Positions 4,373 through 25,801 of a DNA stretch of 64,000 nucleotides are shown here, in pieces. A model generated the notes under the pieces. It was not told the DNA's origin, made no database searches, and saw nothing but the letters and a program-made list of their open reading frames with translations. The DNA lies in assembly GCF_030539875.1 (NCBI RefSeq), contig NZ_JAUNXI010000010.1:1-64000 (forward strand). The letters are read 5' to 3'. Position 1 is the first letter of the stretch. Each line of letters starts with the position of its first letter. The DNA is from Methanobrevibacter sp. Lineage in GTDB: Archaea; Methanobacteriota; Methanobacteria; Methanobacteriales; Methanobacteriaceae. The translations under genes were made by a program, and so were the position numbers.

Positions 4373-5596
4373 ATGAGTTATGAAAACAGCGCTAGAATAA
4401 TTAATGACGATATTTTCGATTTGGTAAACGAATATTTTGACATGGAGCGAAGTAGTCAAAATAATGAAAGCAGAGTTGATTTTTTTAATACTTACAGAGA
4501 TTATTTTGTTTTAACAGATGATGGATCCTATTCTATTAATTCTAAAGAAATAAACCATAAAGTTGAAACGTTACATACATCTACAGGCGCCATAAGCGAA
4601 TCATTTGAGAAGTTTATCAGGCCGATGAAATTCAATTACTCCAAAGACATTGCCATTCTGGACATTTGTGCAGGATTGGGATACAACACATCAGCGGCAA
4701 TAGCAGATTTTATTAAAAACAGTTCTGATTTGGATTTGCAAATTGACATGGTCGAAATTTCAAAGGCAACCCTTGCCTGCGGACTTTTAGTCCCCTCCCC
4801 AATACCTGAACACGACATAACTAAAAAGGCCATTGAGGATGAATTAATAAAACAGGATTATGCCTCATCAAGCCTTGAAGAATGTGAAATTCCAAAAAAC
4901 ATTGACATCAATGTCTTTATTGAAGATGCGAGGCAGACCGTTCAGAATCTTGCCGACAGCACTTATGATGCAATATTTCTAGATCCGTTCAGTCAAAACA
5001 TGGCTCCTGAATTGTTTTCCCTTGAATTTTTTAGGGAATTTAAAAGAATAATAAAGGATGATGGAATTGTTGCAACCTACACTTCATCAGCACCGGTCAG
5101 AGCAGCATTTATTGAAGCCGGCTTCAATATAGGATTGGGCCCAATATTCGGAAGAAAACAGGGAGGAACACTAGCCAGTCCAAAACCTGAAATGCTTGAT
5201 TATTCACTGCCTAAAAATGATGAAATAAGAATCGCACTATCAGATGTTGGAATCCCATTTAGAGATCCCGGACTAAATAACCCGAGCGAATTTATCTTAA
5301 ATGAAAGAACAGAGGAAAGGCACCTTGCCCGCCACAATACTAAAATTTCATCTGCCGTTAAAACACCTATCTTTTTAGGAGATGAAATGGATGACGAGAA
5401 ACTGAAAAGGCGTGTTGAGAGAAACCTTGCCAAAATGAATATTCCATCTACAACCTCAGATGAGGCGCTATACATTATTGAATGTGAAAAAAAGTACTCA
5501 GAAAAACAGGACGAAAAGAACAATTCGACAATCAGAATTTTAGATATGAAAAACAGACTGAAAAAAGTTAAAAAAGGAAACTATGATTCAACATAA
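4373..5596 (+). CDS. MnmC-like (DUF752-type) SAM-dependent methyltransferase, 407 aa
   Basis: Carries a degenerate SAM motif ([15 protein letters not shown], about 97-111) and the signature [18 protein letters not shown], followed by [19 protein letters not shown]. This is the MnmC methyltransferase-domain pattern, which in bacteria finishes mnm5-uridine in the tRNA wobble position. No FAD oxidase domain is present. The C-terminal 100 residues are charged and of unknown role. Archaeal homologues are commonly linked to tRNA modification, which fits the neighbouring tgtA, but the substrate is inferred. A possible TATA box (TTTATAATA) lies about 30 bp before the ATG. The 3' end overlaps the convergent adhesin gene by 16 bp. 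Confidence 0.8.
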
Positions 5597-7458
5597 TTTC
5601 CGCTTTTAAGCAGGTATGCCTCTTCTTTTGATGACTCGACATAACCTGATACCATAGTTAAATCTCTGCCTGTACCGTCATGGTTGTGTCCGAAAACAGA
5701 CCAGTCAGCATCACAATACTGTTTACCTCCGGTACAGTGCATACATATAATGATACCTTCACAGCTGCCTCCCTCACCATGAGCTGGACGGCTGTCGGTT
5801 GCAGGAAAAGTTCCATAATCTGTAGATTCATCTTTCGCCCAGAAAATACTCCAGTAAAGCTCATTACCTCCGCAGATAGGACAGATTCTTAAAAATTCAG
5901 CCTTATGGAACCTATATCCATCAGGGTCTGCTGAAGAAGACTGTTTACCAATAGCCAAAATAGTTTTACCGTCTTCTGAAACACCAAACTGATTATAGGA
6001 TTTTCCCTGGCTCGGTTCTACAACAGTGATTTTTTTATTTAGTGTATATCCGGTTGCCAAATCCTTGCAGACCACATTATATACCCCTTTATTAAGAGTG
6101 AACTTGACTTTGGCAATACCCTTTGAGTCTGTTTTGACAGTATGTGTTGTTCCGTCAATAGTTATCTGCATGTCAGTATTTTTAGCTACGCTGCCGCTTT
6201 GCTGTAAGAGAGTTGCTTGGAAAACCCCTTCCTTACCTTCTCTTGCACTAACATCATTTGCTTTAATTGAAGCCAATTTAACAGTTACCTTTTTATTCAG
6301 CACATAGTTTGTAAATGGATCAACACATTTAAAGTTATAAGTTCCCTTTGCCAGTTTGAAGTTGACTGTAGCAACACCTTTTGAGTCTGTTTTAACGGTT
6401 TTTTTAGCTCCGTCAACATAAACCTTCATGTAAGTATTTTTAGCTAAGCTTTCACCTTTGTAAAGTGTTACCTTGAACTTTGAAGTGGTTCCGGTAAAAA
6501 CGGACATTGAATTTGCATATAGTGTCGGTGAAACTGTCAGAGTGTTGGTTCTTTTCTCACCAGTATTTGTGTTGATTGAAACGATTTTGTAAGTTCCAGG
6601 TTTAGAAATTACCTTAATGGATGCAATACCCTTGGAATTGGTTTTTTTGTAGAAATAAGTTCCCTTGGTGTAAAACTTGATTGTTTTACCCGCTAAAACC
6701 TTACCGTTTTTTCCGTAAAATTTCGCCTGGAATACTTTTGAACTTAAATAATGCTTTTTAAGATTGCTTGACACAATTGAAGGTTTAACAGTAAGCTTAT
6801 TTGAAATTTTATATCCGTTGGGATGTATTGCATAAATTGTATAAGTGCCAACTTTCAAATCCAAATTCAAGCTAGCAACACCCTTGGAATTAGTCTTTTT
6901 GGAGTAGGTCTTCCCGGCTACTTTAAATTTAATGTAAGTATTGGCCAGCGGCTTTCCATCGGGTTTTAAAAATGTGGCTGAATATTTCGCAACATGCTTA
7001 TAAGTTGTAGTAAGATCACTTCCCTTTACAACCGGCAACACATTAATATTGTTCTGTGCAGTCAAATTGCCGTAATAAACAGTGACTATATAATTGCCAG
7101 GATATAAATTTATAGGCATTGAAACCTTACCTGAATTGTCAGTATTATAAGTGTAATTGACCTTGTTGATGTTTAAAATCAGAGATGCATTCTCAACAGG
7201 TTTATCCCAATCATATAAAGTAACCTCATAGTTGGACGGGCCTTTATAATACTTGTTTACATCATTACCGTTTAATGTATAATTCTCTTCAGAATTTAGA
7301 GTAGTGACATTATCATCTGCAGATGGAATATCATAATCCTCCGATGGAGGTTCATCATCCACCTCATCAGTCATATTAGTATCAACTGCAGAAACTGCAG
7401 AAACTGATAAAATAAAAACTAATGTCAATATAATAAAACTAATTTTTTTATTAAACAT
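5581..7458 (-). CDS. Secreted Ig-repeat adhesin-like protein with C-terminal Cys-rich module, 625 aa
   Basis: An N-terminal signal peptide (basic MFNKK, hydrophobic core, cleavage near SAVSA/VD) is followed by an acidic linker. Then come about five tandem Ig-like beta repeats of 80-85 residues (roughly 70-480), each with a recurring K-T-(N/D)-S-K-G-(V/I)-A motif and G-T-Y strands. This matches the adhesin-like proteins common in Methanobrevibacter. The last 140 residues differ: they contain CPICGG, CEG, CMHC and YC motifs, suggesting metal binding or disulfides. No C-terminal membrane anchor is seen, so cell-wall attachment may be through this module. The gene stands alone and overlaps the convergent methyltransferase gene. 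Confidence 0.8.
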
Positions 7459-13441: not shown

Positions 13442-13476
13442 AAAAAAAAAGAAAGGAGTTATAGTTTAACTATAAC
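13442..13476 (-). terminator. Stop-overlapping hairpin terminator of the NSS transporter gene
   Basis: GTTATAGTT (13458-13466) and AACTATAAC (13468-13476) form a perfect 9-bp stem that reaches the first base of the stop codon complement. On the minus strand it is followed by a T run (A run at 13442-13450). Confidence 0.5.
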
Positions 13477-14963
13477 TATACTCTATTTTCAGCATTGTCC
13501 CAATCTGAATTTTTAGCCGGAAGAATAGTGAATATTAAACTAGCTATCAATAAAACAGCCGCTGAAATGATTGTAAATATTAACTGGTCCATGCTTCCAT
13601 TGTTTATTACATCAATCATTCCGCCAACCCAAATGACAGTTACGAAGATTGGTAAAATATATTTAACAACAACAATCCACCATTTACCGAGTTTAATAGA
13701 TTTACTTTGACTATTTAAGAAATCAATCAATTTTTCAGCTTTGAATATCCAAGCAAATACAATACATTCAGCTACAACACCAATCAACAGCGCTATCTGA
13801 TTAATAAATGTATCCACAAATCCAAGCAATGTTCCTCCATAAGCTGTTGCATAAAGCATAGAGACAGCAGCACCGACAATACATAAAATTGTCATTGTTT
13901 TGGATCTTGTTAGGCCAAACTTATTTTGAATTGAAAAAGACAGAGGTTCAATTGTAGATAAGATACTTGTAAGGCCTGCAAGGTAAACAGTCAAGAAGAA
14001 CAGTGGTCCAAGCACTAAAGCCCAATTGCCCAATACATTAAACACTGCAGGATATGCAACAAATACAAGACCTGTTCCTTGAGTTACAAGGTCTGCTACA
14101 GCAGTTCCTGATTGTAAGGACATGTAACCTAAAATTGAAAATACACCCAATGCTGCAAAGTTCTCAAATAGGGAATTTGCAAGAACAATGGAAATAGTGT
14201 TTGTAACCAAATCTGAATCGTCTTTTGTATAACTTGCATAAGTAAATGCAATAGACATACCTAAACTTAGGGAAAATACAATCTGACCGAAAGCAGCCAT
14301 CCAAATTTCAAAATGAGTCAGAAGTGACCAGTCAGGATCAAACAGCTCAGATAGACCAATAGAAGCACCAGGTAATGTAAGTGAAAATGCCACAATAATA
14401 ACCATAATAAGGAACAAGAGAGGAACTAACACTTTTGATACTTTACCTAAACCTGATTCCAGGTCTTTGTGAGAAATAAACCAAATAACAACCCAACCAA
14501 TAAGCATTGCAATAGCAATTACAGGAATGAAACTGAATAAACCGGTGTAAGCTTCGCTAGATTGCAAAAGAGTAGTTGCAAAGAAATTGTTCGGGTCTGC
14601 TCCCCACCCTTTAAAGAAACTTAAAATCATATATATTCCGTCCCAACCAAGAATAGCTGAGTAATAAATCATAATCATAAATACAGCAACTGGCAAAAAC
14701 CAGCCCAAATACTCCCATTTGGAATTAATCTTTCTGATAGCTTTTGCAAAAGAAGATTTATAATTATATCCGACACCATATTCTAAAATCAAAAATGGAA
14801 TTCCCATTAAAAGAATTGCAACAATATAAGGGATGTAAAATGCTCCCCCACCGTTAGAATAAAGCACATACGGATATCTCCAAATGTTTCCAAGACCAAC
14901 TGCAGAACCAATCATCGCCAAGATGAATGAAAGGTTGCTGCCCCATTCATTTTTATCTGCCAT
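13476..14963 (-). CDS. Sodium-dependent transporter, neurotransmitter:sodium symporter (NSS) family
   Basis: A symporter of the LeuT fold, usually importing amino acids with Na+. The family opening is clear: WGSNLSFILAMIGSAVGLGN followed by IWRYPYV and GGGAFYIPYI. About 12 hydrophobic segments cover the 495 residues, the usual length. The ATG at 14963 is preferred because GGAAATT is better spaced before it than anything before the ATG at 14972. Substrate is unknown. It is monocistronic, with a terminator over its stop codon. Confidence 0.92.
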   Translation of the reverse strand: MADKNEWGSNLSFILAMIGSAVGLGNIWRYPYVLYSNGGGAFYIPYIVAILLMGIPFLILEYGVGYNYKSSFAKAIRKINSKWEYLGWFLPVAVFMIMIYYSAILGWDGIYMILSFFKGWGADPNNFFATTLLQSSEAYTGLFSFIPVIAIAMLIGWVVIWFISHKDLESGLGKVSKVLVPLLFLIMVIIVAFSLTLPGASIGLSELFDPDWSLLTHFEIWMAAFGQIVFSLSLGMSIAFTYASYTKDDSDLVTNTISIVLANSLFENFAALGVFSILGYMSLQSGTAVADLVTQGTGLVFVAYPAVFNVLGNWALVLGPLFFLTVYLAGLTSILSTIEPLSFSIQNKFGLTRSKTMTILCIVGAAVSMLYATAYGGTLLGFVDTFINQIALLIGVVAECIVFAWIFKAEKLIDFLNSQSKSIKLGKWWIVVVKYILPIFVTVIWVGGMIDVINNGSMDQLIFTIISAAVLLIASLIFTILPAKNSDWDNAENRV

Positions 14964-15118
14964 AATTTCCATTTTCCTATAATTTATAAAATATAATTTT
15001 TGTAAGTAATATATTAAATAAGTTACTTTTAGTTTGAGGAATTTTTATTCTTATTCCATAACAGCAGCTATAAAATGAGCAAAACATTATTTTTATAAAT
15101 ATAAAATAGTGATGATAA

Positions 15119-15955
15119 TCAATATTTTCCAAAATCTATTGTTTCAGTAATATGATTATATCTATCTTCCTTTGGAGGTAATTGCATATAATCTCCATAC
15201 AAACTTTTTAAAATATGATCATAATTAACAGGAACGTTAACTTCAATATCTTCAAATTTAATCTTTGTTATTGATTTAAAATCATCTCTGCGAAATATTA
15301 GAGGATACTCTTCTGCAGTAGCAGAGATATCAAATACATATTCTGAATTTGAATTTTTATATTTCCTTAAAAATGACAAACATCTTTTATTTAATGTAGC
15401 TGGTTTTATTTTAAGTAAATTTAAAATGTGATAACCTGTGTGAGTTATTACTTTTGTAATGAAAGGCAGATTATCCAGTTTAATTTTAGACATTATTAAT
15501 AATTTGTTATATAAAAATGATTTTTTAAGCTGATAACTTCTTTTGAACTTACCTTCTGCCAAATCATCTAAAACAAATATGTCCATATTTATCCCAATAT
15601 GAAAATCAACTTGACTAACCCAACCTTCTTCGAATTTAGTGCCTTTAATCATTAATTTGGAAAGTAAATGAAAATAATCCTTTTCTGTTTCATTAGATAA
15701 TAATTCATAAGTTTCATTGTTAGATGCGATGAAAATTTCTTTAAATTTCTCAAAATCATCTCTAAACATAATTACATCCAAATCATCATCCCATGGAATA
15801 AACCCGTTATGCCTGACAGCACCTAAAAGAGAGCCGGCATACATATAATATGTAAGATTGTTTTCCTCACAAATTTTAATGAAATCTTTTAAAATCATTA
15901 ATTCAAGATTTTGCAAGTGATTTAATGTTTGATTATCATATTCAGTGTATTTCAA
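15119..15955 (-). CDS. LicD family phosphotransferase, 278 aa
   Basis: LicD proteins move phosphocholine or other phospho-alcohols from a CDP carrier to a glycan. The core motif GSLLGAVRHNGFIPWDDDLD spans residues 41-60 and includes the acidic metal-binding cluster. It ends PPKEDRYNHITETIDFGKY, nearly like the end of the second LicD at 22254, so the two are paralogues. Last gene of the left operon, 13 bp after phosphonopyruvate decarboxylase. That context suggests its donor is a CMP-linked phosphonate, which is inference. Confidence 0.9.
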   Translation of the reverse strand: MKYTEYDNQTLNHLQNLELMILKDFIKICEENNLTYYMYAGSLLGAVRHNGFIPWDDDLDVIMFRDDFEKFKEIFIASNNETYELLSNETEKDYFHLLSKLMIKGTKFEEGWVSQVDFHIGINMDIFVLDDLAEGKFKRSYQLKKSFLYNKLLIMSKIKLDNLPFITKVITHTGYHILNLLKIKPATLNKRCLSFLRKYKNSNSEYVFDISATAEEYPLIFRRDDFKSITKIKFEDIEVNVPVNYDHILKSLYGDYMQLPPKEDRYNHITETIDFGKY

Positions 15956-15968
15956 AATATCCCTTTTT

Positions 15969-17087
15969 CTATTGGTCTAAAAAATTCATAAAGTTTTCTT
16001 TGTTTTCGATTGCGGTTGTAGTTGGTCTTCCTAAATCTGCACGAGCGCCAATTGAAGATAAAACTTCAATAAAACATAATTTACCCATATCCTTTACTTT
16101 CATGAGTTCATTATCCAGATCTTTAAGATTATCAACAGACACTGCATAGGAATAACCGCATGCTTTTGCAATTGTAACAAGATTCATATTTGACGCTACA
16201 GTCGGCATTCCGCCAACGGTTTCATGAGCTCCATTATTAACTACAATATGGATTAAATTATCCGGATTAACATTTCCAACAACAGGCATTGAACCCATAT
16301 GCATTAATAAAGCGCCGTCTCCATCAACGCACCAAACCCTTTTATCAGGTTTATTTACTGCAACGCCCAATGCTATTGAAGAAGAATGCCCCATAGAACC
16401 TACAGTTAAAAAGTCATATTTATGAGCTTGTTTATTAGATTCCCTTATTTCAAATAGCTCACGACTGGCTTTGCCTGTTGTTGATATAATCGGATCTTCA
16501 CCAGACACGCTGACAATGTGTTCTATGATTTCTTCACGATCCAGTTCATTATCATTTTCATAAACGACTTTTTCATCATATGTTAAAGCGTTTTTACGAA
16601 TAACAAACGCAACACTTTTACCTGTTTTAAGAACTTTATTAAATTCATCCATGACTTCATTAAGCTCTCCAACAGTAGTTTCGCAACTAACAGCAAAGTT
16701 TTCAATATCCATTAAATCAAGCAGGTCACAGGTGATTTTTCCCTGATAGATATGCTGAGGTTCGTCATGAATTCCAGGTTGTCCTCGCCAGCCAATAACA
16801 AAAATAGCAGGAATGGCATAAACTTGATCGTTTAAAAGAGATGCAACAGGATTGATAATATTGCCTTCACCGCTATTTTGCATATAGACAACTGGAACCT
16901 TGCCAGTAGCTAAATGATAACCAGCTGCAAGAGCAGTACAATTACCTTCATTAGCGGCTATTAAATGGTGTTTTTCATCAATACCATATTCATTCATTAA
17001 ATAATTGCATAATGCTTTCAGTTGTGAGTCTGGAACACCAGTATAGAATTCACAATTCAAAACATTAACAAAATCTTCAACTTTCAT
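15969..17087 (-). CDS. aepY: Phosphonopyruvate decarboxylase
   Basis: A thiamine-diphosphate enzyme that decarboxylates phosphonopyruvate to phosphonoacetaldehyde, pulling the unfavourable PEP mutase reaction forward. Visible are the catalytic E47 in AANEGNCTALAAGYHLATG, the TPP motif from GDG (256-258) to NN (284-285), and the family tail GARADLGRP (346-354). Length 372 aa is full. It sits in one tight operon with PEP mutase, which makes true decarboxylase function much more likely than another TPP activity. Confidence 0.95.
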   Translation of the reverse strand: MKVEDFVNVLNCEFYTGVPDSQLKALCNYLMNEYGIDEKHHLIAANEGNCTALAAGYHLATGKVPVVYMQNSGEGNIINPVASLLNDQVYAIPAIFVIGWRGQPGIHDEPQHIYQGKITCDLLDLMDIENFAVSCETTVGELNEVMDEFNKVLKTGKSVAFVIRKNALTYDEKVVYENDNELDREEIIEHIVSVSGEDPIISTTGKASRELFEIRESNKQAHKYDFLTVGSMGHSSSIALGVAVNKPDKRVWCVDGDGALLMHMGSMPVVGNVNPDNLIHIVVNNGAHETVGGMPTVASNMNLVTIAKACGYSYAVSVDNLKDLDNELMKVKDMGKLCFIEVLSSIGARADLGRPTTTAIENKENFMNFLDQ

Positions 17088-17098
17088 TATGATTAATC

Positions 17099-18280
17099 CT
17101 ATTTATTTAATTGTGGAGTTATTATTTTATCAATGAGGAAATTTGCAGTTTTTTCAATTTCATCATACTTTACTTCTTTTGGCAAATCTTCGCCAAAAGC
17201 TTTTTCTACTTTTTTAATCAAATCATCGGTGTAGATTAATGTTGAATCACGAATATCCTCTACACCATCCAAAGCTAATGATTCCCTGTTTGCTTTGTCC
17301 ATTTCATCAAAAGTAAATACTGATTCATCAATCCATGCAGAAATTTCATCATCTTTATAACCAATAATTACCGGATATCCTCCAATATGGCCAAATGCTC
17401 CTGGTGAAAATACTTTCTGATTTTTACCTGTACGGATTGCATCGATTACAGCAGAAATGATACGGTAGTTACTTGAAGCATTCATCATGTTTCTTTTTTG
17501 GTCAACAGGCATGCTGATTGAACATTCTTTGAAAATATCTTCATGAGGAATATCTTGCTCTTCACCTTTATAATATATTTTAAGAGGCAGATTCACACCT
17601 TCAGTTTGTCCTTCCTTACTAAGGCATACATCATGAAAATGAGATGCTGCAAAATTAAAGTCAACATTCCAGAAATCATCAACTCCCAAAATATCTGCTA
17701 CTGCAAATTTCATTCTAGGAATCAGATGATTTAAATTTCCACTTCCAAAGTCAGGATATGCTTTTTCAGCACTTTTAAGCCATGGAATTACAGCATCAGA
17801 ATAAGAAGTATTAATAACAACCGCATTTGCATCTGCGTTTTCACATGCATCCATAATATTTTTTGTAAATTTAATAGATAATGGGGTCCAGATACCGTAA
17901 GCCCTTACATTGCTCCATGATATACTTCCATATTTAAGGCCGGGATATGCTCTGCTTGAGTTAACAATGAAATCAGGGTCATATTTACTTATTGCTTTTT
18001 CTATTGATTGAACATCATTTAAATCAACACCTGATTCAATTTCAATTTGAGATTTATTAAGTTCACGAATAAGTCCCGCAACACGAACAATATTAACATC
18101 AGATTGCATTTTCTCATAGTTTCTTCCAACAACAACTAATTTTATTGCAGGGTCATTTTTACTTACTAAAAAGTCCAATAAGTAAGTTCCAACACTACCT
18201 AATCCGATAATCATTATTGTAATTTCATCATCATTTACATGTTTTTCCACAATTTTTAATCTTTCATCTAAAGTTTTCAT
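17099..18280 (-). CDS. Rossmann-fold dehydrogenase of unassigned specificity, 393 aa
   Basis: A dinucleotide site is visible at residues 23-36 (MIIGLGSVGTYLLD), followed by VVVGRNYEKM, DPDFIVNSSRAYPG and VVINTSYSDAVIPWLK, patterns reminiscent of the lactate/malate dehydrogenase or saccharopine-dehydrogenase-like folds. The C-terminal half (FNFAASHFHDV, FSPGAFGHIGGYP) matches nothing I know. It lies 11 bp before the decarboxylase gene and 1 bp after the nucleotidyltransferase gene. Because no aminotransferase is present in the operon, reduction of phosphonoacetaldehyde or a later intermediate is an attractive role, but this is inference. Confidence 0.65.
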   Translation of the reverse strand: MKTLDERLKIVEKHVNDDEITIMIIGLGSVGTYLLDFLVSKNDPAIKLVVVGRNYEKMQSDVNIVRVAGLIRELNKSQIEIESGVDLNDVQSIEKAISKYDPDFIVNSSRAYPGLKYGSISWSNVRAYGIWTPLSIKFTKNIMDACENADANAVVINTSYSDAVIPWLKSAEKAYPDFGSGNLNHLIPRMKFAVADILGVDDFWNVDFNFAASHFHDVCLSKEGQTEGVNLPLKIYYKGEEQDIPHEDIFKECSISMPVDQKRNMMNASSNYRIISAVIDAIRTGKNQKVFSPGAFGHIGGYPVIIGYKDDEISAWIDESVFTFDEMDKANRESLALDGVEDIRDSTLIYTDDLIKKVEKAFGEDLPKEVKYDEIEKTANFLIDKIITPQLNK

Positions 18281-18281
18281 G

Positions 18282-19052
18282 TTATTTCCTCCAATAATCT
18301 TTTATATTCTGATAATCCTCACGGGTATTGCAATTAACCCAATGCTTTAATCCAATAATCTCAATATCTTCATTATTTTCCATTAAATCTAAATATTTTT
18401 GAATAATTCCCAAATTTGTATCTTCAATAAGGTTATTGTAAAAATTATCATTTGCCTCTCTAAGCAATCCCATATCCTTAAACTTCCAAGTTTGACCAGA
18501 ATTAAAAATAGCTTTAAATGGTTCGCTTAAACTTAACAGCCCGTGATTACTGTTAAATAAGTAATGGTATTCATTATTTTTATTTTGATAAAGAACAACA
18601 GATTTGTTTGAGGAAATTGGTTCTCTGTTAAATGTTAGAACATTTTTATCGGATTTGACTATTTTTGCAAATGACTCATTATCAATATCCAGATCGCCTT
18701 CAACAAAAAGCACTTCATCAATTTCATCAAAATTATTTAAAGCTTCTTTAATTCCCAGGTATAAACTGTAACCGGAACTTAAATCACTGAAATGATCATT
18801 TTCAACAAGAATAATTTTTTCTTGCAAAACCTCTGGAATTTCCTCATCAATATATCCGGTTAAATCAGAATACCTGTATCCTCCAACAATGATTATTTTA
18901 TCATAGCTCTCTAATTTTTCAAGCATATGAAAAATCAGCGTATCGTGAGGATTCTCTTCATAATATAAACATTTCAATATCTTTTCATCCTCGGGAATAT
19001 CTTTATTAAATCTAGTGGAAATTCCTGCAACAGTAATAATGGAAATTTTCAT
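18282..19052 (-). CDS. LicC/PntC-like nucleotidyltransferase, 256 aa
   Basis: NTP_transf_3 type fold: ISIITVAGISTRF replaces the usual G-x-G-T-R-(F/L) P-loop, and DEVLFVEGDLDIDNESF supplies the metal-binding acidic pair. LicC makes CDP-choline, and the related PntC domain makes CMP-2-aminoethylphosphonate. Next to PEP mutase, phosphonopyruvate decarboxylase and LicD, activation of a phosphonate with CTP is the simplest reading. The aminotransferase domain that PntC fusions carry is absent. Confidence 0.8.
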   Translation of the reverse strand: MKISIITVAGISTRFNKDIPEDEKILKCLYYEENPHDTLIFHMLEKLESYDKIIIVGGYRYSDLTGYIDEEIPEVLQEKIILVENDHFSDLSSGYSLYLGIKEALNNFDEIDEVLFVEGDLDIDNESFAKIVKSDKNVLTFNREPISSNKSVVLYQNKNNEYHYLFNSNHGLLSLSEPFKAIFNSGQTWKFKDMGLLREANDNFYNNLIEDTNLGIIQKYLDLMENNEDIEIIGLKHWVNCNTREDYQNIKDYWRK

Positions 19053-19060
19053 TTACACAC

Positions 19061-20065
19061 CTAATTTTTTGTGTAGTTTTCAACACATTCAGTTAATCCT
19101 TTATCTAAATCAATTATTGGTTTCCAATTAGTTCTTGCTTTAATTTTTTCAGTTGACAACAATCTTCTTTCAGGATCAGATTCACGATAACCTTCAAATT
19201 TAATAACTGGTTCTGCAATGCCCATTTTTTTTGCAATTAAAATTGTTAAATCAATAATGGAAATTTCTTCATCAGTAGCAACATTGTAAATAGTCCCATC
19301 AAGGGCAGAATCAGTTTTTGCCAAATTAAGTACTGCACTGCAACTGTCATAATTATTCAAAAAGGTTCTGCAATTCTTTTTAGAATTTTCAAGTAATACA
19401 ACTTCCCCATTATTTTTAAAGCTATCTATAATATGTGGAATAATATGCTTTGGATATTTTTCATCTTTGCTGTAAACATTAGCAAAACGAATAGAACATC
19501 CTTTGATTTTACCGTTGTCAACTGCATCTTTGATGAAAAACTCAGTTAAGAGTTTGCCGGTTGCATAACTAGTCCTTTGACTATGTTCTGCATCAGACAT
19601 AGTGATAAAATCAGATTCTTTAACTCCCCCATCTTCATTCCAAGAATTCATTGAATATATTTCTGAAGTAGAGCAGTTAATGTATTTTTCAGCACCTACA
19701 CGAATGGCCTGCTGTAGAAAATTATTCATACTAACGACATTAGTTTCATAAGTTTCATAAACCTTATAGAAATGTTCTGTATGAACAACAGCAGCACAAT
19801 TAATATAGATTACTTCATCAAAGTCCTTTTTAATTTCAACAACCATTGATTCGATTTTATTCATGTCTTCATCATTATTTAAGTCATATTCATAAAAATC
19901 AAAACGGCCATCATCAATACAGTCGCTTACAGTATCGATTGAAGATGCATAAAAGTTATCAAAACCAATGACTTTTACTTCATCGTCCTTTTGATTTAAT
20001 AATTGACGAACCAACTCATTACCAGTCATTCCGGTAACGCCACTAATTACATATAATATTTTCAT
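19061..20065 (-). CDS. NAD-dependent epimerase/dehydratase (extended SDR), 334 aa
   Basis: Begins MKILYVISGVTGMTGNELV, the SDR glycine motif, and has the catalytic set CSTSEIYS and SYATGK (the Y-x-x-x-K pair). It belongs to the NDP-sugar epimerase/dehydratase group. The ATG at 20065 has AAGGTGACT before it; the upstream in-frame ATG at 20086 lies inside the previous gene and is rejected. It may make the sugar that receives the phosphonate, or act on a nucleotide-linked intermediate. The start is 10 bp after the phosphoesterase stop. Confidence 0.85.
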   Translation of the reverse strand: MKILYVISGVTGMTGNELVRQLLNQKDDEVKVIGFDNFYASSIDTVSDCIDDGRFDFYEYDLNNDEDMNKIESMVVEIKKDFDEVIYINCAAVVHTEHFYKVYETYETNVVSMNNFLQQAIRVGAEKYINCSTSEIYSMNSWNEDGGVKESDFITMSDAEHSQRTSYATGKLLTEFFIKDAVDNGKIKGCSIRFANVYSKDEKYPKHIIPHIIDSFKNNGEVVLLENSKKNCRTFLNNYDSCSAVLNLAKTDSALDGTIYNVATDEEISIIDLTILIAKKMGIAEPVIKFEGYRESDPERRLLSTEKIKARTNWKPIIDLDKGLTECVENYTKN

Positions 20066-20075
20066 AATAGTCACC

Positions 20076-20807
20076 TTAAATTCCATGTTCTAATCTTTTT
20101 CTATAAAAATCATCAACACTCCCATCATATAAATCCATTGCATCATGTTTAGGATATTCAACTGATTTTAATTCAACGGACATCAAATTAGTGTTTAAAA
20201 CTGCATATTGAGCATTGGGATTATGATTTCTAGGTTGGCCAACAGAACCTGGATTAATAAATAATACTGATTTTCTGTTTCTCATATCAGGATTGTCAAA
20301 TTCATAAAATTTTTGAAAAACATGAGGATAATGAGAATGTCCCGATAGAACAATATCATAATCAATGTAATTTCCATTTAGATTATCTGGAAAAATTGCT
20401 TTCCAATAATGATCATCTAAAGACCCGTGGACGGCTAAAACATGTTTTTCACCTATTTCAAATTCAAATTTGCCTTCCTGAACCAAATTGTTATTTAAAT
20501 AATCTCTAGATTCACTAGTTAATATTGAATCGGTGAATTGTGCCGATTCGACACCTCTTGTACTTGAAAAATGGTTAAAATCTTTTGTCAAAATAGCTTT
20601 TTCATGATTTCCCAAAATATTGCAAATAATTTTTGTTGAAAAATTATCGCGGATAAAATCAACAACTTCATTTGATTGCATTCCATAATCAATTAAATCC
20701 CCTAAAAGAATTACGGAATCAATATCCTGTTTAATTAAATCTTTAAAAACTTCTTTTAGGGCAAATAAATTCCCATGGATGTCTGATAAAATTGCATATT
20801 TTGACAT
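20076..20807 (-). CDS. Calcineurin-like metallophosphoesterase (YfcE/MJ0936 type), 243 aa
   Basis: All metal-ligand motifs are present: DIHGN (8-12), GDLIDYG, GNHEKA, AVHGSLDD and SGHSHYP. Members hydrolyse phosphodiesters or phosphomonoesters. Within the phosphonate operon it may clean up a nucleotide intermediate or release a phosphate from a precursor. Ribosome site AGGCGAT before the ATG; 9 bp after PEP mutase. Confidence 0.88.
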   Translation of the reverse strand: MSKYAILSDIHGNLFALKEVFKDLIKQDIDSVILLGDLIDYGMQSNEVVDFIRDNFSTKIICNILGNHEKAILTKDFNHFSSTRGVESAQFTDSILTSESRDYLNNNLVQEGKFEFEIGEKHVLAVHGSLDDHYWKAIFPDNLNGNYIDYDIVLSGHSHYPHVFQKFYEFDNPDMRNRKSVLFINPGSVGQPRNHNPNAQYAVLNTNLMSVELKSVEYPKHDAMDLYDGSVDDFYRKRLEHGI

Positions 20808-20816
20808 TTAATCGCC

Positions 20817-22124
20817 TTATAACTCATCAATCAATGTAATAATCTTCTTAATAGATAATAATTCCTCATCAATTTCATGTGCTCTGTGATGTTTTAAAAT
20901 GCTTTTCGCAGCATTTTGCATTGCCGGGAAAGCAGCCCGCAATAACTGATTTGCATAGATTACTATATTAACTCCATGTGCAGTTAATTCTTCTTCAGTG
21001 ATTGTATTAAACGAAGATGGAACGACAACGATTGGAGTTTCACTGTCTTTCGCTCTGAATTTATCACAGAACTCCAAAATTTCATCCGGTTCTTTTCTTC
21101 TGCTGTGAATCATAATTCCATCTGCACCAGCATCACGAAACGCAAATGCTCTTTTAAGTGCATCTTCCATACCCTGTTCAAGAATAAGGCTTTCAATCCT
21201 TGCAATAATCATGAAATCATCAGATATTTGCGCATTCTTACCTGCAGATATTTTTTCACAGAAATGTTCAATTTCATCTTGAGTTTGTTCCACTTCTGTT
21301 CCGAAAAGGGAGTTTTTCTTCAATCCAATTTTATCTTCAATAATAACTGCTGAAACACCCATTCTTTCAAGAGACCTAACTGTATAAACAAAGTGTTCTG
21401 CGATTCCACCAGTATCCCCATCAAAGATAATCGGCTTTGTTGTAACTTCCATAATATCATTGATTGTTCTGAATCTTGAAGTCATATCAACTAATTCAAT
21501 ATCAGGTTTTCCCTTTTCAGTACTGTCGCATAAGCTTGAAATCCACATTGCATCAAATTGATCAATTTGTTCATCATCAGCTATGACTGTTTTTTCTGCA
21601 ATTAATCCGGTTAATCCGCTGTGGACTTCGATTGTTTTAACAACAGGTACGATTTTTAATAATTTCCTTAATCTTGCTCTTCTAAGCTCAGGCATGGCTA
21701 ATTTTTCTCTCATCTGCCTATCAATTTTTTGTATTTTTTCATTGAAAGTATAAGGAACTTCAATTAATTCCCCGCCATATTCTTCAAGAACAGAGATAAT
21801 ATTTTTCCTTATTACTTTCATTGAGTCTTCAACCCAATTATCTCCATGGATAATGTAATCTGGACGAAGTTCACGAACAACATCATCATACATTATTTTA
21901 TCCTGAACAATGACTTTTTTTACATCTGGAAGTCCTTTAACTAATTCCATACGTTCTTCAGTTGTCTTTAATGGGAACCTATTATATTTCACCATTTCAG
22001 AATCACAAAGAACACCCACAACCACATCACCATATTTTTTAGCTTCATTAATTAAATTTAAATGACCATCATGAATAACATCAGTGCAAAAACATGTATA
22101 TACAATCGGATTATCAGACCTCAT
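20817..22124 (-). CDS. Cytidylyltransferase / phosphoenolpyruvate mutase fusion, 435 aa
   Basis: The C-terminal domain (about 155-430) is PEP mutase, which rearranges PEP to phosphonopyruvate, the first committed step of nearly all phosphonate synthesis. It has DGDTGG (235-240) and the diagnostic E-D-K-x5-N-S motif (EDKIGLKKNS, 263-272) that separates true mutases from isocitrate-lyase relatives. The N-terminal domain (1-140) is a TagD/GCT-like cytidylyltransferase with HDGH (18-21), probably activating a phospho- or phosphono-alcohol with CTP. First gene of the left operon, preceded by AAGGTAAT. Confidence 0.95.
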   Translation of the reverse strand: MRSDNPIVYTCFCTDVIHDGHLNLINEAKKYGDVVVGVLCDSEMVKYNRFPLKTTEERMELVKGLPDVKKVIVQDKIMYDDVVRELRPDYIIHGDNWVEDSMKVIRKNIISVLEEYGGELIEVPYTFNEKIQKIDRQMREKLAMPELRRARLRKLLKIVPVVKTIEVHSGLTGLIAEKTVIADDEQIDQFDAMWISSLCDSTEKGKPDIELVDMTSRFRTINDIMEVTTKPIIFDGDTGGIAEHFVYTVRSLERMGVSAVIIEDKIGLKKNSLFGTEVEQTQDEIEHFCEKISAGKNAQISDDFMIIARIESLILEQGMEDALKRAFAFRDAGADGIMIHSRRKEPDEILEFCDKFRAKDSETPIVVVPSSFNTITEEELTAHGVNIVIYANQLLRAAFPAMQNAAKSILKHHRAHEIDEELLSIKKIITLIDEL

Positions 22125-22253
22125 AATATTACCTTAATTAATTATTAATTATATAATAATAACTATTAATTCATTTAAAAAAGAAAATATTTAAAAATTT
22201 CTAACAATATATAAGTTATCATTTAATAAAAAAAATAATTTGCGGAAAATACT
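22125..22253. promoter_or_regulatory. Divergent promoter region of the phosphonate and LicD operons
   Basis: The 129-bp AT-rich gap is the only space between the two oppositely directed operons. On the plus strand CAATATATAAG (about 22207-22217) is a TATA candidate about 40 bp before the LicD ATG. On the minus strand TATATAATTAAT and TTTAAATA are candidates for PEP mutase. Sharing this space makes joint control plausible. Confidence 0.45.
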
Positions 22254-23087
22254 ATGTTTAAGTCAAAGCGATATGATGATGAAACATTAGAACATCTAAA
22301 GAAAGTTCAGATGAAAATTTTAAAATACTTCATTAAAGTTTGTGAAGAAAACGATTTAACTTATTTTATTTATGGAGGAAGTTTACTTGGAACTATACGG
22401 CATAAAGGATTCATTCCATGGGACGATGATATTGATGTTATAATGTTTAGAAAAGACTTTGAAAAATTAAATAAGATTTTTGAAGAAGATATCGATGAGA
22501 AATATAGATTCATCAATGTTTTAAATGAGGAAACCTACCACTACACATGGGGCAGATTAATGCTGAAAAATACTGTAATTAATGAATGGTGGGCCAGTCA
22601 AGTTGATTATACGCAAAATATTTTTATTGATGTTTTTATTTTAGACAATATTCCCAAAAACGGATTCAAAAGGTTCATCCATAAATGGACCAGTTTTTCA
22701 CTTAATCAACTGACAATGTATGCTTTTCTTAAATTTGACAATGAATCAAAACTTAAAAAAATATTTCAGCAAGCAGTACATTACTTATTAAGAATAATTC
22801 CGATTTCACCTTACAATATTAAGAAAAAATGCGTGAAATCCTTCTCCAAATATCAATATGAAGACTGTGATGAAGTATGCGATTTTCCGGCAATATGTCA
22901 AATGCCCGTATACAATAAAAAGGATTGGATACCTCCAAAAAAAGCACAATTTGAAGATATTATGGTTAATGTACCTAATAATTACGATAAAATTTTGAAA
23001 AGAAGTTATGGAAACTATATGGAATTGCCTCCAGTTGAATCAAGATTTCGTCCGGCTCCCGATGAAATCGATTTTGGCGAATATTAA
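22254..23087 (+). CDS. LicD family phosphotransferase, 277 aa
   Basis: Second LicD of the locus, with GGSLLGTIRHKGFIPWDDD at residues 41-59. The same family includes the animal enzymes fukutin and FKRP, which transfer ribitol phosphate from CDP-ribitol. It is followed at 13 bp by a GpsA-like gene and then an IspD/TarI-like cytidylyltransferase, suggesting its donor is a CDP-polyol rather than a phosphonate. First gene of the right operon, with GCGGAAAAT rather than a strong ribosome site before its ATG. Confidence 0.9.
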   Translation: MFKSKRYDDETLEHLKKVQMKILKYFIKVCEENDLTYFIYGGSLLGTIRHKGFIPWDDDIDVIMFRKDFEKLNKIFEEDIDEKYRFINVLNEETYHYTWGRLMLKNTVINEWWASQVDYTQNIFIDVFILDNIPKNGFKRFIHKWTSFSLNQLTMYAFLKFDNESKLKKIFQQAVHYLLRIIPISPYNIKKKCVKSFSKYQYEDCDEVCDFPAICQMPVYNKKDWIPPKKAQFEDIMVNVPNNYDKILKRSYGNYMELPPVESRFRPAPDEIDFGEY

Positions 23088-23100
23088 ATCGGTGAAAACT

Positions 23101-24069
23101 ATGAAATTAAATGTTGGAGTTATTGGCAGCGGTGCAATGGGAACTGCAATTTCACAGTCAATAGCTGAAAATGTAGACAAATTATTTTTATATGCAAGAA
23201 GAGAGGAGATTTGTAATGAGATTAATTCCAAACATTACAACTCCCAATATTATCCGAATTTAAAATTAAAAGATAATATAATTGGAATAAATGATTTTAG
23301 TAAACTGAAAGATGCAGACATTATTTTTTTATGCATCCCATCATCAACCGTTCGAAATGTGACAGAAGAGTTAAATGATTATATTTCCAAAGACTGCATT
23401 CTGGTTACAACTGCAAAAGGAATGGAAGCCAATACAAACAAACGCATGACAGAAATAATTGAAGAGACAACAAAAAGACCGGCAGTTGCATTGTCAGGTC
23501 CCAATATTGCCTCTGAAATGGCTCAGAATTTATCTACTGCAACAACTATTGCATGTGACAATAAAGAATATTTAACAAAAGTGAAAAATTCATTAGAAAC
23601 TAAAAAGTTTAAGGTAAACACAAATACTGACGTTATTGGAACAGAATACTGCGGCATTCTTAAGAATGTGGTTGCAATCAGTCAGGGAATATGTGAAGGT
23701 TTGGACATTAATGATAATGCGAGGTTTGCATTATTTACTAAAAGTTATAATGAAACAAAAGAGATTATCGAAGTTTTAGGTGGAAAAAGAGACATTGTTG
23801 ATGATTATTGCGGATTTGGAGATATAATCACAGCATCCACATTATCAGTTAGTAGAAACCATACTTTAGGTGTTTTATATGGTCAGGGGATTGTTGTTGA
23901 TGAAAAATCGTCAGGAATTCTATTTGAAGGCAGAAACACAACAGTTATTCTAAAAGGAATTTGTGAAAAATATAACCTCAATAGCCTGACTGTTGATTTT
24001 GTATATGATGTTATTGTGGAAAAAAACAATCCGAAACTGGCATTTAATAATTTCTGGGACGGTTTATAA
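23101..24069 (+). CDS. Glycerol-3-phosphate dehydrogenase-like protein (GpsA family), 322 aa
   Basis: Begins MKLNVGVIGSGAMGTAISQS, the NAD(P) site. ALSGPNIASEMA, CGILKNVVAISQG (with the catalytic lysine) and GFGDIITAS followed by VSRN match GpsA. It would interconvert dihydroxyacetone phosphate and sn-glycerol-3-phosphate, or act on a related polyol phosphate. Archaeal lipids use sn-glycerol-1-phosphate, so this enzyme is not needed for membranes and is best explained by the surface-polymer context. ATG at 23101 with GGTGAAAAC before it; the earlier frame extension into LicD is rejected. Confidence 0.85.
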   Translation: MKLNVGVIGSGAMGTAISQSIAENVDKLFLYARREEICNEINSKHYNSQYYPNLKLKDNIIGINDFSKLKDADIIFLCIPSSTVRNVTEELNDYISKDCILVTTAKGMEANTNKRMTEIIEETTKRPAVALSGPNIASEMAQNLSTATTIACDNKEYLTKVKNSLETKKFKVNTNTDVIGTEYCGILKNVVAISQGICEGLDINDNARFALFTKSYNETKEIIEVLGGKRDIVDDYCGFGDIITASTLSVSRNHTLGVLYGQGIVVDEKSSGILFEGRNTTVILKGICEKYNLNSLTVDFVYDVIVEKNNPKLAFNNFWDGL

Positions 24070-24070
24070 T

Positions 24071-24772
24071 ATGATTTTTGCAGCAATGCTTGCTGGTGGA
24101 ATCGGAACCAGAATGGGTTTGAATAAACCAAAACAGTTTGAAATTGTTGGTGATAAACCTATACTCATACATTCTACCGAAACATTTCTAAAAGTAAATG
24201 AAATTGATAGAATTATTGTTTCATCTCCTGAAAAGTTTATTGACCGAACCAAAGAATTAATCAACGATTATTTTCCGGATGATGAAAAAATTGCCGTTAT
24301 AGCTGGCGGTGAAACACGAAATGACACTATCCTGAATTCAATAAAGTACATAAAAGAAAATTACTCAGATGAAGATCATATTTTGATTACGCATGATGCT
24401 GCCAGAATCTTCGTAAGTGAAAGTTTAGTTAAAAAAAGTATTGACAGTGTAATCAACCATGATGCTGCAAGTCCGGTAATGCCTGCTGTTGACGTTATAT
24501 TTGAAACCAAAGAAGAAGGAAAACTAACAGACATTCCCCTCCGCAGGAATTTAGTGCATGCCCAGACTCCTCAAAGCTTTAAAATTAATAGATTTATGGA
24601 AATATACTCCAATTTAAATCAGGAGGAAATAGATACATTGGATGAAGCAATGATGCTGTTCTTCCTGAGAGACGGAGATGTAAAATTATTTAAAGGAGAA
24701 TCAGGTAATTTTAAAATTACTCGAAACATAGATTTGAAAATTGCAGAAGCATATTTAAATGAAATAAAATAG
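24071..24772 (+). CDS. IspD/TarI-like cytidylyltransferase, 233 aa
   Basis: CTP-binding loop LAGGIGTRMGLNKPKQF (7-23), AGGETRNDTI (78-87) and HDAAR (108-112) are characteristic of IspD, TarI and human ISPD. Archaea use the mevalonate route, so MEP synthesis is unlikely; TarI/ISPD-type synthesis of a CDP-polyol fits better. It starts 1 bp after the GpsA-like gene, pointing to a substrate made by that enzyme. The exact polyol (ribitol, glycerol or other) cannot be read from the sequence. Confidence 0.85.
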   Translation: MIFAAMLAGGIGTRMGLNKPKQFEIVGDKPILIHSTETFLKVNEIDRIIVSSPEKFIDRTKELINDYFPDDEKIAVIAGGETRNDTILNSIKYIKENYSDEDHILITHDAARIFVSESLVKKSIDSVINHDAASPVMPAVDVIFETKEEGKLTDIPLRRNLVHAQTPQSFKINRFMEIYSNLNQEEIDTLDEAMMLFFLRDGDVKLFKGESGNFKITRNIDLKIAEAYLNEIK

Positions 24773-24781
24773 CTTGATAAA

Positions 24782-25801
24782 ATGAAAAACTTAAATCATG
24801 ACACCAAACCCAAAAAAGAGAGAATATTTTATTACGATTTCCTAAGGGCTTTTGCAATAATTGCAGTTATTATTTGTCATGTCGACCATTTCTTTGGTCC
24901 GCTAACCGGCACAACCCAAATTATTGCTCAAATGACTTTTCATGATATTGGAAGAATAGGTGTTCCTATCTTTTTAATGATTAGCGGAGCGCTTCTCTTA
25001 AACCGCGAGTATCCTGATTTGGGACAATTTTTAAAGAAGAGATTTGCACGTATTATTTATCCTTTTATTTTTTGGATTATCTTAATTTTAGCTCAGCTTA
25101 CATATTACGGTTATAATCAGACATTTATCTGGAATGTGTTTATCGGAGAACCTTCAATTACCTGGTATTTTTGGGTTTTAATCGGGATTTATTTGTTTTT
25201 GCCTATCCTCAATTCATTTGTTAAGGAGTATGGGGAGAATGGTTTAAAATACTTTTTGGCCATTTGGTTTATGATAATGGTTTTAAAGACATTCAATTCC
25301 TATCCTTTATGGGCCAATTTTGATTTAAGCTATTTTGCAGGTTATGTTGGATACCCAATTTTAGGATATTATTTGGCCAATAAAGAATTTAAAGTAACTG
25401 ATGCTAAAATGTGCATTGCAGGATTTGTTACTCTTTTAATTTCTTTAGGAGTGTTTGTTTATTTGAATTATTACAGCAGCAATTTAATCAGCCTAATTTA
25501 TCAAAACATTCCAATAATATTTATGGGTTCAGGTTTATTCATATTTGTCAGATACCTTGACAAGTTAAACAAGTTTAACTCAATTAAAGACAATTTCGTC
25601 GGAAAAGCGATTATTTCATTAAGTGTGTGCAGTTATGGGATGTATTTTTCACATGTGCTTGTGGTTAAATTCCTATCCTACTACAATCCCCATTCCCATT
25701 TAATGTTTCCAGTGATGTTTGCTTCAATTATATTTTTATCCTGGCTGCTGCCCTATGTGTTAAGTAAAATCCCTTATGTGAAAATTTTCAGCGGATTATA
25801 A
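24782..25801 (+). CDS. Membrane acyltransferase 3 family protein, 339 aa
   Basis: About ten transmembrane segments. The family start FYYDFLRAFAIIAVIICHVD carries the conserved Arg and His of acyltransferase 3 (OatA/WecH/NodX type) enzymes, which move acetyl or other acyl groups onto exported carbohydrates. It ends the right operon, 9 bp after the cytidylyltransferase, and probably O-acylates the same surface polymer. Confidence 0.88.
   Translation: MKNLNHDTKPKKERIFYYDFLRAFAIIAVIICHVDHFFGPLTGTTQIIAQMTFHDIGRIGVPIFLMISGALLLNREYPDLGQFLKKRFARIIYPFIFWIILILAQLTYYGYNQTFIWNVFIGEPSITWYFWVLIGIYLFLPILNSFVKEYGENGLKYFLAIWFMIMVLKTFNSYPLWANFDLSYFAGYVGYPILGYYLANKEFKVTDAKMCIAGFVTLLISLGVFVYLNYYSSNLISLIYQNIPIIFMGSGLFIFVRYLDKLNKFNSIKDNFVGKAIISLSVCSYGMYFSHVLVVKFLSYYNPHSHLMFPVMFASIIFLSWLLPYVLSKIPYVKIFSGL

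Follow-up and report, generated by a model that had tools for sequence, protein, structure and literature searches.

In Firmicutes, TarI, a cytidylyltransferase with solved structures from S. pneumoniae (2vsi), S. aureus (6xhq) and B. subtilis (4jis), and the dehydrogenase TarJ, whose gene is directly linked to that of TarI, provide CDP-ribitol for wall teichoic acid. CDP-glycerol is made by TagD/TarD, and the TagD motifs are HxGH and RTxGISTT (PMC8262930). The product of human ISPD (CRPPA), associated with FKTN and FKRP, is CDP-ribitol (PMC4873967). Among methanogens, teichoic-acid gene homologues and high wall phosphate were reported for Methanobrevibacter ruminantium M1 (Leahy 2010; PMC2812497), and the outline of teichoic-acid-like genes in this species is therefore not new; the accessible part of that report, on the same organism group as studied here, mentions neither a gpsA-TarIa pair, nor a link between GpsA and CDP-polyols, nor a phosphonate operon.

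The locus described here lies in a window of 64,000 nucleotides from a gut methanogen with a Methanobrevibacter-type genome. Four genes, all intact open reading frames, are on the plus strand: a LicD/FKRP-family phosphotransferase of the nucleotidyltransferase fold (22254 to 23087; PF04991, 144 bits), a GpsA-family sn-glycerol-3-phosphate dehydrogenase (ATG at 23101, stop at 24069, with the open frame extending upstream to 23008; PF01210, 144 bits; PF07479, 106 bits), an IspD/TarI-family cytidylyltransferase designated TarIa (24071 to 24772; PF01128, 147 bits; NF001183), and an OafA-type membrane O-acyltransferase (Acyl_transf_3; 24782 to 25801; PF01757, 140 bits). Spacings of 13, 1 and 9 bases indicate a single operon, and the domain matches, intact frames and short gaps bear out the operon proposed by a sequence-only reading of this DNA. 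Chance juxtaposition can be dismissed because gpsA-TarIa recurs at 19 non-identical loci of related genomes. An AT-rich intergenic region of 129 bp (22125 to 22253) separates this operon from a divergent one. Promoter and terminator scanning of this archaeal locus, for which only bacterial promoter models were used, returned no more sites than shuffled controls.

TarIa has the family and fold of Firmicutes TarI, and in both systems the dehydrogenase gene is directly linked, but the archaeal dehydrogenase is GpsA rather than the MDR-type TarJ, and TarIa forms its own clade, with substitutions at positions that do not vary among tarJ-linked TarI. TagD/TarD enzymes have the same reaction and product as are predicted for TarIa, whereas the folds are unrelated, and TarIa (PF01128, IspD/TarI fold) failed assignment to TagD/TarD. 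The locus shares with human ISPD and FKTN/FKRP the logic of an IspD-fold cytidylyltransferase and a LicD/FKRP-fold transferase; TarIa, however, is nearer to bacterial TarI and is partnered with GpsA. By both sequence and fold, TarI was closer to TarIa than was IspD or human ISPD, in line with its earlier description as TarI-like: the match to TarI 4jis had an E value of 9e-54, and the top Foldseek matches, from a structure comparison suggested with the original claim, were S. aureus TarI structures containing CTP or CDP-ribitol. Identity to TarI structures was 35 to 39% across the fold-search alignments, and pLDDT in the TarIa model was <50 over most of residues 138 to 148.

gpsA adjoins TarIa in all 19 non-identical loci and tarJ in none (0/19), while other TarI genes of the same genomes and of Firmicutes have tarJ as a neighbor in 83 of 84 loci and gpsA in none; the single locus lacking tarJ sits at a contig end. 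The gpsA-TarIa link persists where gene order is reversed (locus L067) and where an opposite-strand gene is inserted (L064 and L065). Within the locus, constant co-occurrence is limited to TarIa and GpsA, and no transferase is strictly tied to them. All 19 linked loci belong to a single clade and so represent one conserved event rather than 19. In the searches made, TarIa was seen only in Methanobrevibacter and close relatives, and a scan of 80 loci, limited to the peptide patterns QTPQSF[NK]I and LDEAM[MV]LF, gave no bacterial gpsA-TarIa pair.

Phylogeny and residue conservation follow the same division. TarIa sequences form one archaeal clade (support, 100/100; stem, 0.79). In TarIa numbering, V111, P113, T135, T142, G164 and K195 are invariant in 27 of 27 tarJ-linked TarI and replaced in 19 of 19 TarIa, and the switches relative to all tarJ-linked TarI are V111 to A/S, P113 to I, D134 to S, T142 to V, G164 to A/S, T191 to D and K195 to a hydrophobic residue.

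These observations suggest that gpsA and TarIa probably form a functional unit producing CDP-glycerol, from which glycerol phosphate is moved to a cell wall glycan. GpsA (23101 to 24069) would reduce dihydroxyacetone phosphate to sn-glycerol-3-phosphate, and TarIa (24071 to 24772), with its altered conserved residues, would couple sn-glycerol-3-phosphate and CTP to give CDP-glycerol. A phosphotransferase would then transfer glycerol phosphate to the wall glycan, candidates being LicD of the locus or one of eight Glyphos_transf (TagF-type) domains encoded elsewhere in the genome. The gene identities, GpsA motifs, strict gpsA-TarIa versus TarI-TarJ linkage, clade separation and lack of any sign of an MEP pathway are direct observations, from which we infer the substrate and product of TarIa and the wall destination. 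The earlier claim of a CDP-polyol-type pathway is supported, and the high wall phosphate reported for M. ruminantium (PMC2812497) also speaks for the proposed unit.

The predicted activity of GpsA is based on membership and motifs. Both Pfam domains are present, the score against NF000942 (259 bits) just exceeds the cut-off of 257, and alignment with the solved GpsA structures 3k96 and 1z82 shows intact KG, KN, GD and SRN motifs, including catalytic and substrate-binding positions. GpsA of the locus has nevertheless been duplicated and has diverged, sharing ~50% identity with each of the two other GpsA of its genome, and the pair might instead convert another ketone, reduced by this variant GpsA, into a CDP-linked derivative of some other small polyol phosphate (a glycerol-phosphate isomer or a tetritol, for example). 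A third source of CDP-glycerol also looks redundant, because the genome has two further clusters combining GpsA and a nucleotidyltransferase, in both cases with a CDP-glycerol-phosphotransferase (Glyphos_transf); the makeup of these clusters at the same time favors CDP-glycerol as the destination of GpsA. In addition, TarI-family cassettes with different partners can be exchanged at the same island: at locus L083, one with an MDR dehydrogenase and a ribulose-phosphate epimerase replaces gpsA-TarIa. Against this, the motifs and the NF000942 score are those of a G3P dehydrogenase, and such a product is considered unlikely.

Slightly less credence is given to TarIa as an ordinary ribitol-5-phosphate cytidylyltransferase forming CDP-ribitol, with GpsA engaged in another reaction. 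The NCBIfam rule gives TarIa this name and thereby counts against CDP-glycerol; its score against the NF001183 model “D-ribitol-5-phosphate cytidylyltransferase” is 275.7 bits, far above the cut-off of 166 (the paralogue TarIb of the same genome scores 361). The nearest solved structures, including CDP-ribitol complexes, are TarI, and D109, R112, R158 and K215 are retained. However, TarIa lacks both a TarJ neighbor and the residues invariant in tarJ-linked TarI, and a separate TarI-TarJ pair (TarI plus an MDR dehydrogenase) elsewhere in the genome could cover CDP-ribitol supply. CDP-glycerol is therefore favored, since GpsA is the constant partner of a distinct clade with cleanly different conserved residues and a TarI-TarJ pair is already available for ribitol. 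Where the sequence-only reading had allowed glycerol or ribitol, the evidence thus speaks for the former and against the latter.

Archaeal lipids are built on sn-glycerol-1-phosphate, and the product of GpsA is the opposite isomer. The genome has one strong match to the G1P dehydrogenase family, for lipids, and PlsY was absent from all 31 genomes. Among 45 non-identical gpsA genes from three families of Methanobacteriales, 43 have TarIa, a TagD-like gene or some other nucleotidyltransferase gene ≤1.7 kb away; of the two exceptions, one is at a contig end and the other has such a gene at ~1.9 kb. This proximity to nucleotidyltransferases of the CDP-forming type suggests a wall-polymer role for GpsA in Methanobacteriales. 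Lipid-evolution studies list scattered archaeal GpsA as likely transfers, and their accessible text states no use for them (PMC5059525 and PMC6431249).

On balance, the evidence leans toward a broader proposal, that TarIa is a CTP:sn-glycerol-3-phosphate cytidylyltransferase born within the TarI/IspD family and that GpsA of Methanobacteriales feed CDP-glycerol to the wall rather than to lipids. If so, this would explain gpsA in archaea whose membranes do not use glycerol-3-phosphate, and the Methanobacteriales GpsA in the lipid-divide debate would be cell wall genes. The occurrence of GpsA in CDP-activation clusters offers a testable wall-polymer role and removes a possible misreading as lipid genes. 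The TarI/IspD family would also gain a glycerol specificity unrelated to TagD; the literature searched contained no characterized member of the family with glycerol phosphate specificity, and searches on archaeal CDP-ribitol or LicD found nothing on a gpsA-TarIa system.

The two outer genes of the operon are less firmly attached to gpsA-TarIa. LicD (22254) carries PF04991 and an invariant WDDDxD motif (W56-D57-D58-D59-x-D61), matches FKRP by sequence (E value, 2.6e-6) and has FKRP at the top of its fold search (~15% identity; query TM score up to 0.49), in agreement with the LicD/FKRP identity first assigned to it. Its clade stays beside the divergent phosphonate operon or a TagD-like operon even where gpsA-TarIa is absent, following the phosphonate operon more constantly than it follows gpsA-TarIa. 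Genomic context thus points to either operon, and LicD may serve the divergent one, which weakens its proposed role as dedicated transferase of the module. Acyltransferase orthologues occur in the same islands at varying positions and are only loosely linked to gpsA-TarIa; the PF01757 assignment holds, and the proposed O-acylation by this last enzyme is weak, because this is an island gene of shifting place. These patterns might indicate a purely physical cluster, in which GpsA supplies glycerol-3-phosphate to general metabolism or lipid synthesis while the products of the two outer genes cooperate with the phosphonate operon. This is very improbable given the strict gpsA-TarIa linkage despite rearrangement, the absence of PlsY and the nucleotidyltransferases near almost all sampled gpsA.

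A role for TarIa as the true IspD of the MEP pathway, with which its PF01128 match would agree, is ruled out for practical purposes by a TIGR00453 (IspD equivalog) score of 155.5 bits against a cut-off of 181.3, a DXR match in the genome limited to 35 Rossmann-like residues, and an encoded HMG-CoA reductase (E value, 1e-132). The same evidence upholds the earlier expectation of a substrate other than MEP, and a search of the genome for a complete MEP pathway, named beforehand as contrary evidence, found no sign of one.

The 7-kb phosphonate operon starts 129 bp upstream of LicD on the minus strand. The sequence-only reading mentioned neither this operon nor the second LicD, the TarI-TarJ pair, the extra GpsA clusters or a second phosphonate cluster. 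The first gene of the operon (20817 to 22124) encodes a CTP_transf_like domain (PF01467, 53 bits) fused to phosphoenolpyruvate mutase (TIGR02320, 412 bits; cut-off, 320). It is followed by genes for a metallophosphatase-like protein (20076 to 20807; domain assigned by inspection only), which is kept in the phosphonate operon of relatives, an NAD-dependent epimerase/dehydratase (19061 to 20086; PF01370, 92 bits), an NTP-transferase-like DUF6564 protein (18282 to 19052; PF20202, 311 bits), a saccharopine-dehydrogenase-like NAD(P) protein (17099 to 18280; PF03435, 27.9 bits) that is possibly a phosphonoacetaldehyde reductase, phosphonopyruvate decarboxylase (15969 to 17087; TIGR03297, 462 bits; cut-off, 312) and, last, the second LicD (15119 to 15955; PF04991, 149 bits). 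With both PEP mutase and phosphonopyruvate decarboxylase above their equivalog cut-offs, this is a phosphonate cluster. Cytidylyltransferase-PEP mutase fusions of the PntC/Fom1 type are known from bacterial phosphonate tailoring (PMC6697681). The divergent operon resembles these in its fusion, and also encodes phosphonopyruvate decarboxylase and LicD, but differs in being archaeal, in its dehydrogenase-like and DUF6564 genes and in lacking a transaminase. Its product is probably a phosphonate activated with CDP and destined for the same surface. Genes for phosphonates and CDP-polyols combined in one island suggest that gut methanogens carry a rich and swappable phosphate chemistry on their surfaces. 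Another phosphonate cluster is located elsewhere in the genome.

The genes for LicD (22254-23087), GpsA (23101-24069), an IspD/TarI-family protein here called TarIa (24071-24772), and an Acyl_transf_3 protein (24782-25801) are real open reading frames with strong domain matches, all on the plus strand as the sequence-only reading had placed them, and gaps of only 13, 1, and 9 bases indicate one operon. The window lies on contig C10 of its genome, G000 (1.82 Mb; completeness, 99.99), and the nearest named relatives of TarIa are in Methanobrevibacter MAGs, many of ruminant or other animal gut origin. For M. ruminantium, homologues of teichoic-acid genes and a high phosphate content of the wall were reported in 2010 (PMC2812497).

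G000 encodes a second TarI-family protein, 46% identical to TarIa, with an MDR alcohol dehydrogenase gene following it, i.e., the TarI-TarJ arrangement. Among relatives and their gene neighborhoods, TarIa adjoins gpsA in all 19 non-identical loci and tarJ in none, whereas 83 of 84 other archaeal and Firmicute TarI genes adjoin tarJ (the exception is at a contig end) and none adjoins gpsA; the two types were unmixed throughout. The gpsA-TarIa linkage is kept despite reversed gene order (locus L067) or an inserted opposite-strand gene (L064 and L065). TarIa forms a single, long-stemmed clade (support, 100/100), and residues invariant in 27 tarJ-linked TarI proteins are replaced in 19/19 TarIa, several inside conserved motifs (HDxVRPF to HDA/SRIF, QGQTPQ to H(A/S)QTPQ, and TDACK to DEAM). 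Linkage, phylogeny, and residues show TarIa to be a separate subfamily that has its own partner. The 19 loci represent a single inherited association and not 19 independent events.

The GpsA partner, whose motifs in the window agree with those of solved enzymes, points to sn-glycerol-3-phosphate as the predicted TarIa substrate. Of the glycerol or ribitol decoration originally envisaged, glycerol is favored by this invariable partner, and ribitol is disfavored, as the genome has its own TarI-TarJ pair. The gpsA-TarIa pair is a real, conserved archaeal unit, with CDP-glycerol as its most likely product. Characterized glycerol phosphate cytidylyltransferases belong, with two exceptions, to the TagD family (PMC8262930). 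No paper on gpsA-linked TarI was found in a literature search that covered few subscription journals.

TarIa is for practical purposes not an MEP enzyme: it scores 155.5 where the IspD equivalog model requires 181.3, and TarI is nearest to it in sequence and fold. TarIa exceeds the cut-off of NF001183 (ribitol-5-phosphate cytidylyltransferase), and its best sequence match is Bacillus subtilis TarI (4jis; E 9e-54), with IspD and human ISPD ranking lower. Its AlphaFold2 model (pLDDT, 83.5; pTM, 0.85) best matches Staphylococcus aureus TarI structures, including CDP-ribitol complexes, and then IspD and ISPD. HMG-CoA reductase is present in G000 (E 1e-132), and a genome search for DXR returned nothing beyond a 35-residue scrap, in keeping with the non-MEP substrate proposed from sequence.

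The other two gpsA genes of G000 each lie ahead of a nucleotidyltransferase gene (PF00483/PF12804), with Glyphos_transf genes; the genome has eight Glyphos_transf domains. gpsA is present in 28 of 60 relatives, and 43 of 45 non-identical copies in loci fetched from three families of the order lie ≤1.7 kb from TarIa, a PF00483/PF12804-type nucleotidyltransferase, or a TagD-like gene. The remaining two are at a contig end (L134) and ~1.9 kb from a nucleotidyltransferase (L144). Among three single-contig genomes, G021 contains both gpsA and TarIa, and gpsA accompanies a nucleotidyltransferase in G026 (the L144 case) and G131. Lipid use of sn-glycerol-3-phosphate looks unlikely, as PlsY was absent from the 31 genomes examined and G000 has one strong match to the G1P-dehydrogenase family. 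In the accessible text of the lipid-divide papers, GpsA of Methanobacteria is listed with no role, and Yokobori et al. reported that they found no informative gene structure (PMC5059525; PMC6431249). We hypothesize from these neighborhoods that GpsA supplies CDP-glycerol synthesis for wall polymers; the gpsA-TarIa unit is of interest chiefly because it opens the role of archaeal GpsA to testing.

LicD at 22254 belongs to its family (PF04991, with the invariant W-DDD-x-D) and matches FKRP by sequence and by fold (model pLDDT, 91). Its clade adjoins the phosphonate operon described below, or an alternative TagD-like/aminotransferase operon, also where gpsA-TarIa is absent there. In six other genomes, a different LicD clade holds the place before gpsA. 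A LicD gene there is thus common, but the one at 22254 may serve the product of the phosphonate operon. The acyltransferase (ACYLTRANSFERASE) has orthologues at variable positions within the same islands and is an unproven candidate member of the gpsA-TarIa module. In G064, the LicD orthologue (L051:7151-7965) is broken over two frames, possibly by a frameshift or sequencing error, beside intact gpsA and TarIa.

The four-gene account stood but overlooked a divergent minus-strand operon (22124-15119) across a 129-bp AT-rich gap. It encodes a CTP_transf_like-PEP mutase fusion, a metallophosphatase-like protein, an epimerase, DUF6564, a saccharopine-dehydrogenase-like protein, phosphonopyruvate decarboxylase, and a second LicD. 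PEP mutase and the decarboxylase pass equivalog cut-offs, identifying a phosphonate pathway. About 60% of bacterial PEP mutases have a direct nucleotidyltransferase fusion, and the PF01467 type, to which the window's fusion belongs, accounts for about a quarter of all (PMC6697681). The saccharopine-dehydrogenase-like gene occupies the expected place of a phosphonoacetaldehyde reductase or transaminase. G000 has a further phosphonate cluster of different build (L019:2976-7178, contig C20), comprising an NTP transferase, a cytidylyltransferase-PEP mutase fusion, a decarboxylase, and an iron alcohol dehydrogenase, with LicD nearby.

In relatives, the phosphonate operon is replaced, opposite the same LicD clade, by genes for a class-V aminotransferase, a TagD-like cytidylyltransferase-GFO/IDH oxidoreductase fusion, and LicD (L057:2930-6151, L060:4661-7910, and L020:8073-11426); by inspection, L020 adds an OCD-like gene. 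By inspection, a sodium:neurotransmitter-symporter-like transporter gene (13476-14972, minus strand) adjoins the LicD-ended operon in the window. In L060, L062, and L082, orthologues of this gene lie beside the TagD-like operon, and the transporter may therefore import a substrate. In L083 (5154-7574), a TarI-family gene, an MDR dehydrogenase gene, and a ribulose-phosphate 3-epimerase gene stand in for gpsA-TarIa in the same island, which suggests that polyol cassettes are swapped within it. In L085 (6973-8993), a gene named by inspection as a GatZ/KbaZ-like aldolase subunit comes after a more distant TarI-family gene, and the two are possibly another such cassette. Immediately downstream of a long gene (~535 aa) with an NTP-transferase-like start, relatives of the family carry a distant IspD/TarI-family gene (L086:4756-7076, L087:4745-7053, and L088:6512-8822). 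Elsewhere in the window, the product of a minus-strand gene (5581-7458) is, by inspection, secreted, carries repeated Ig-like segments, and is of the adhesin-like type that these methanogens commonly have.
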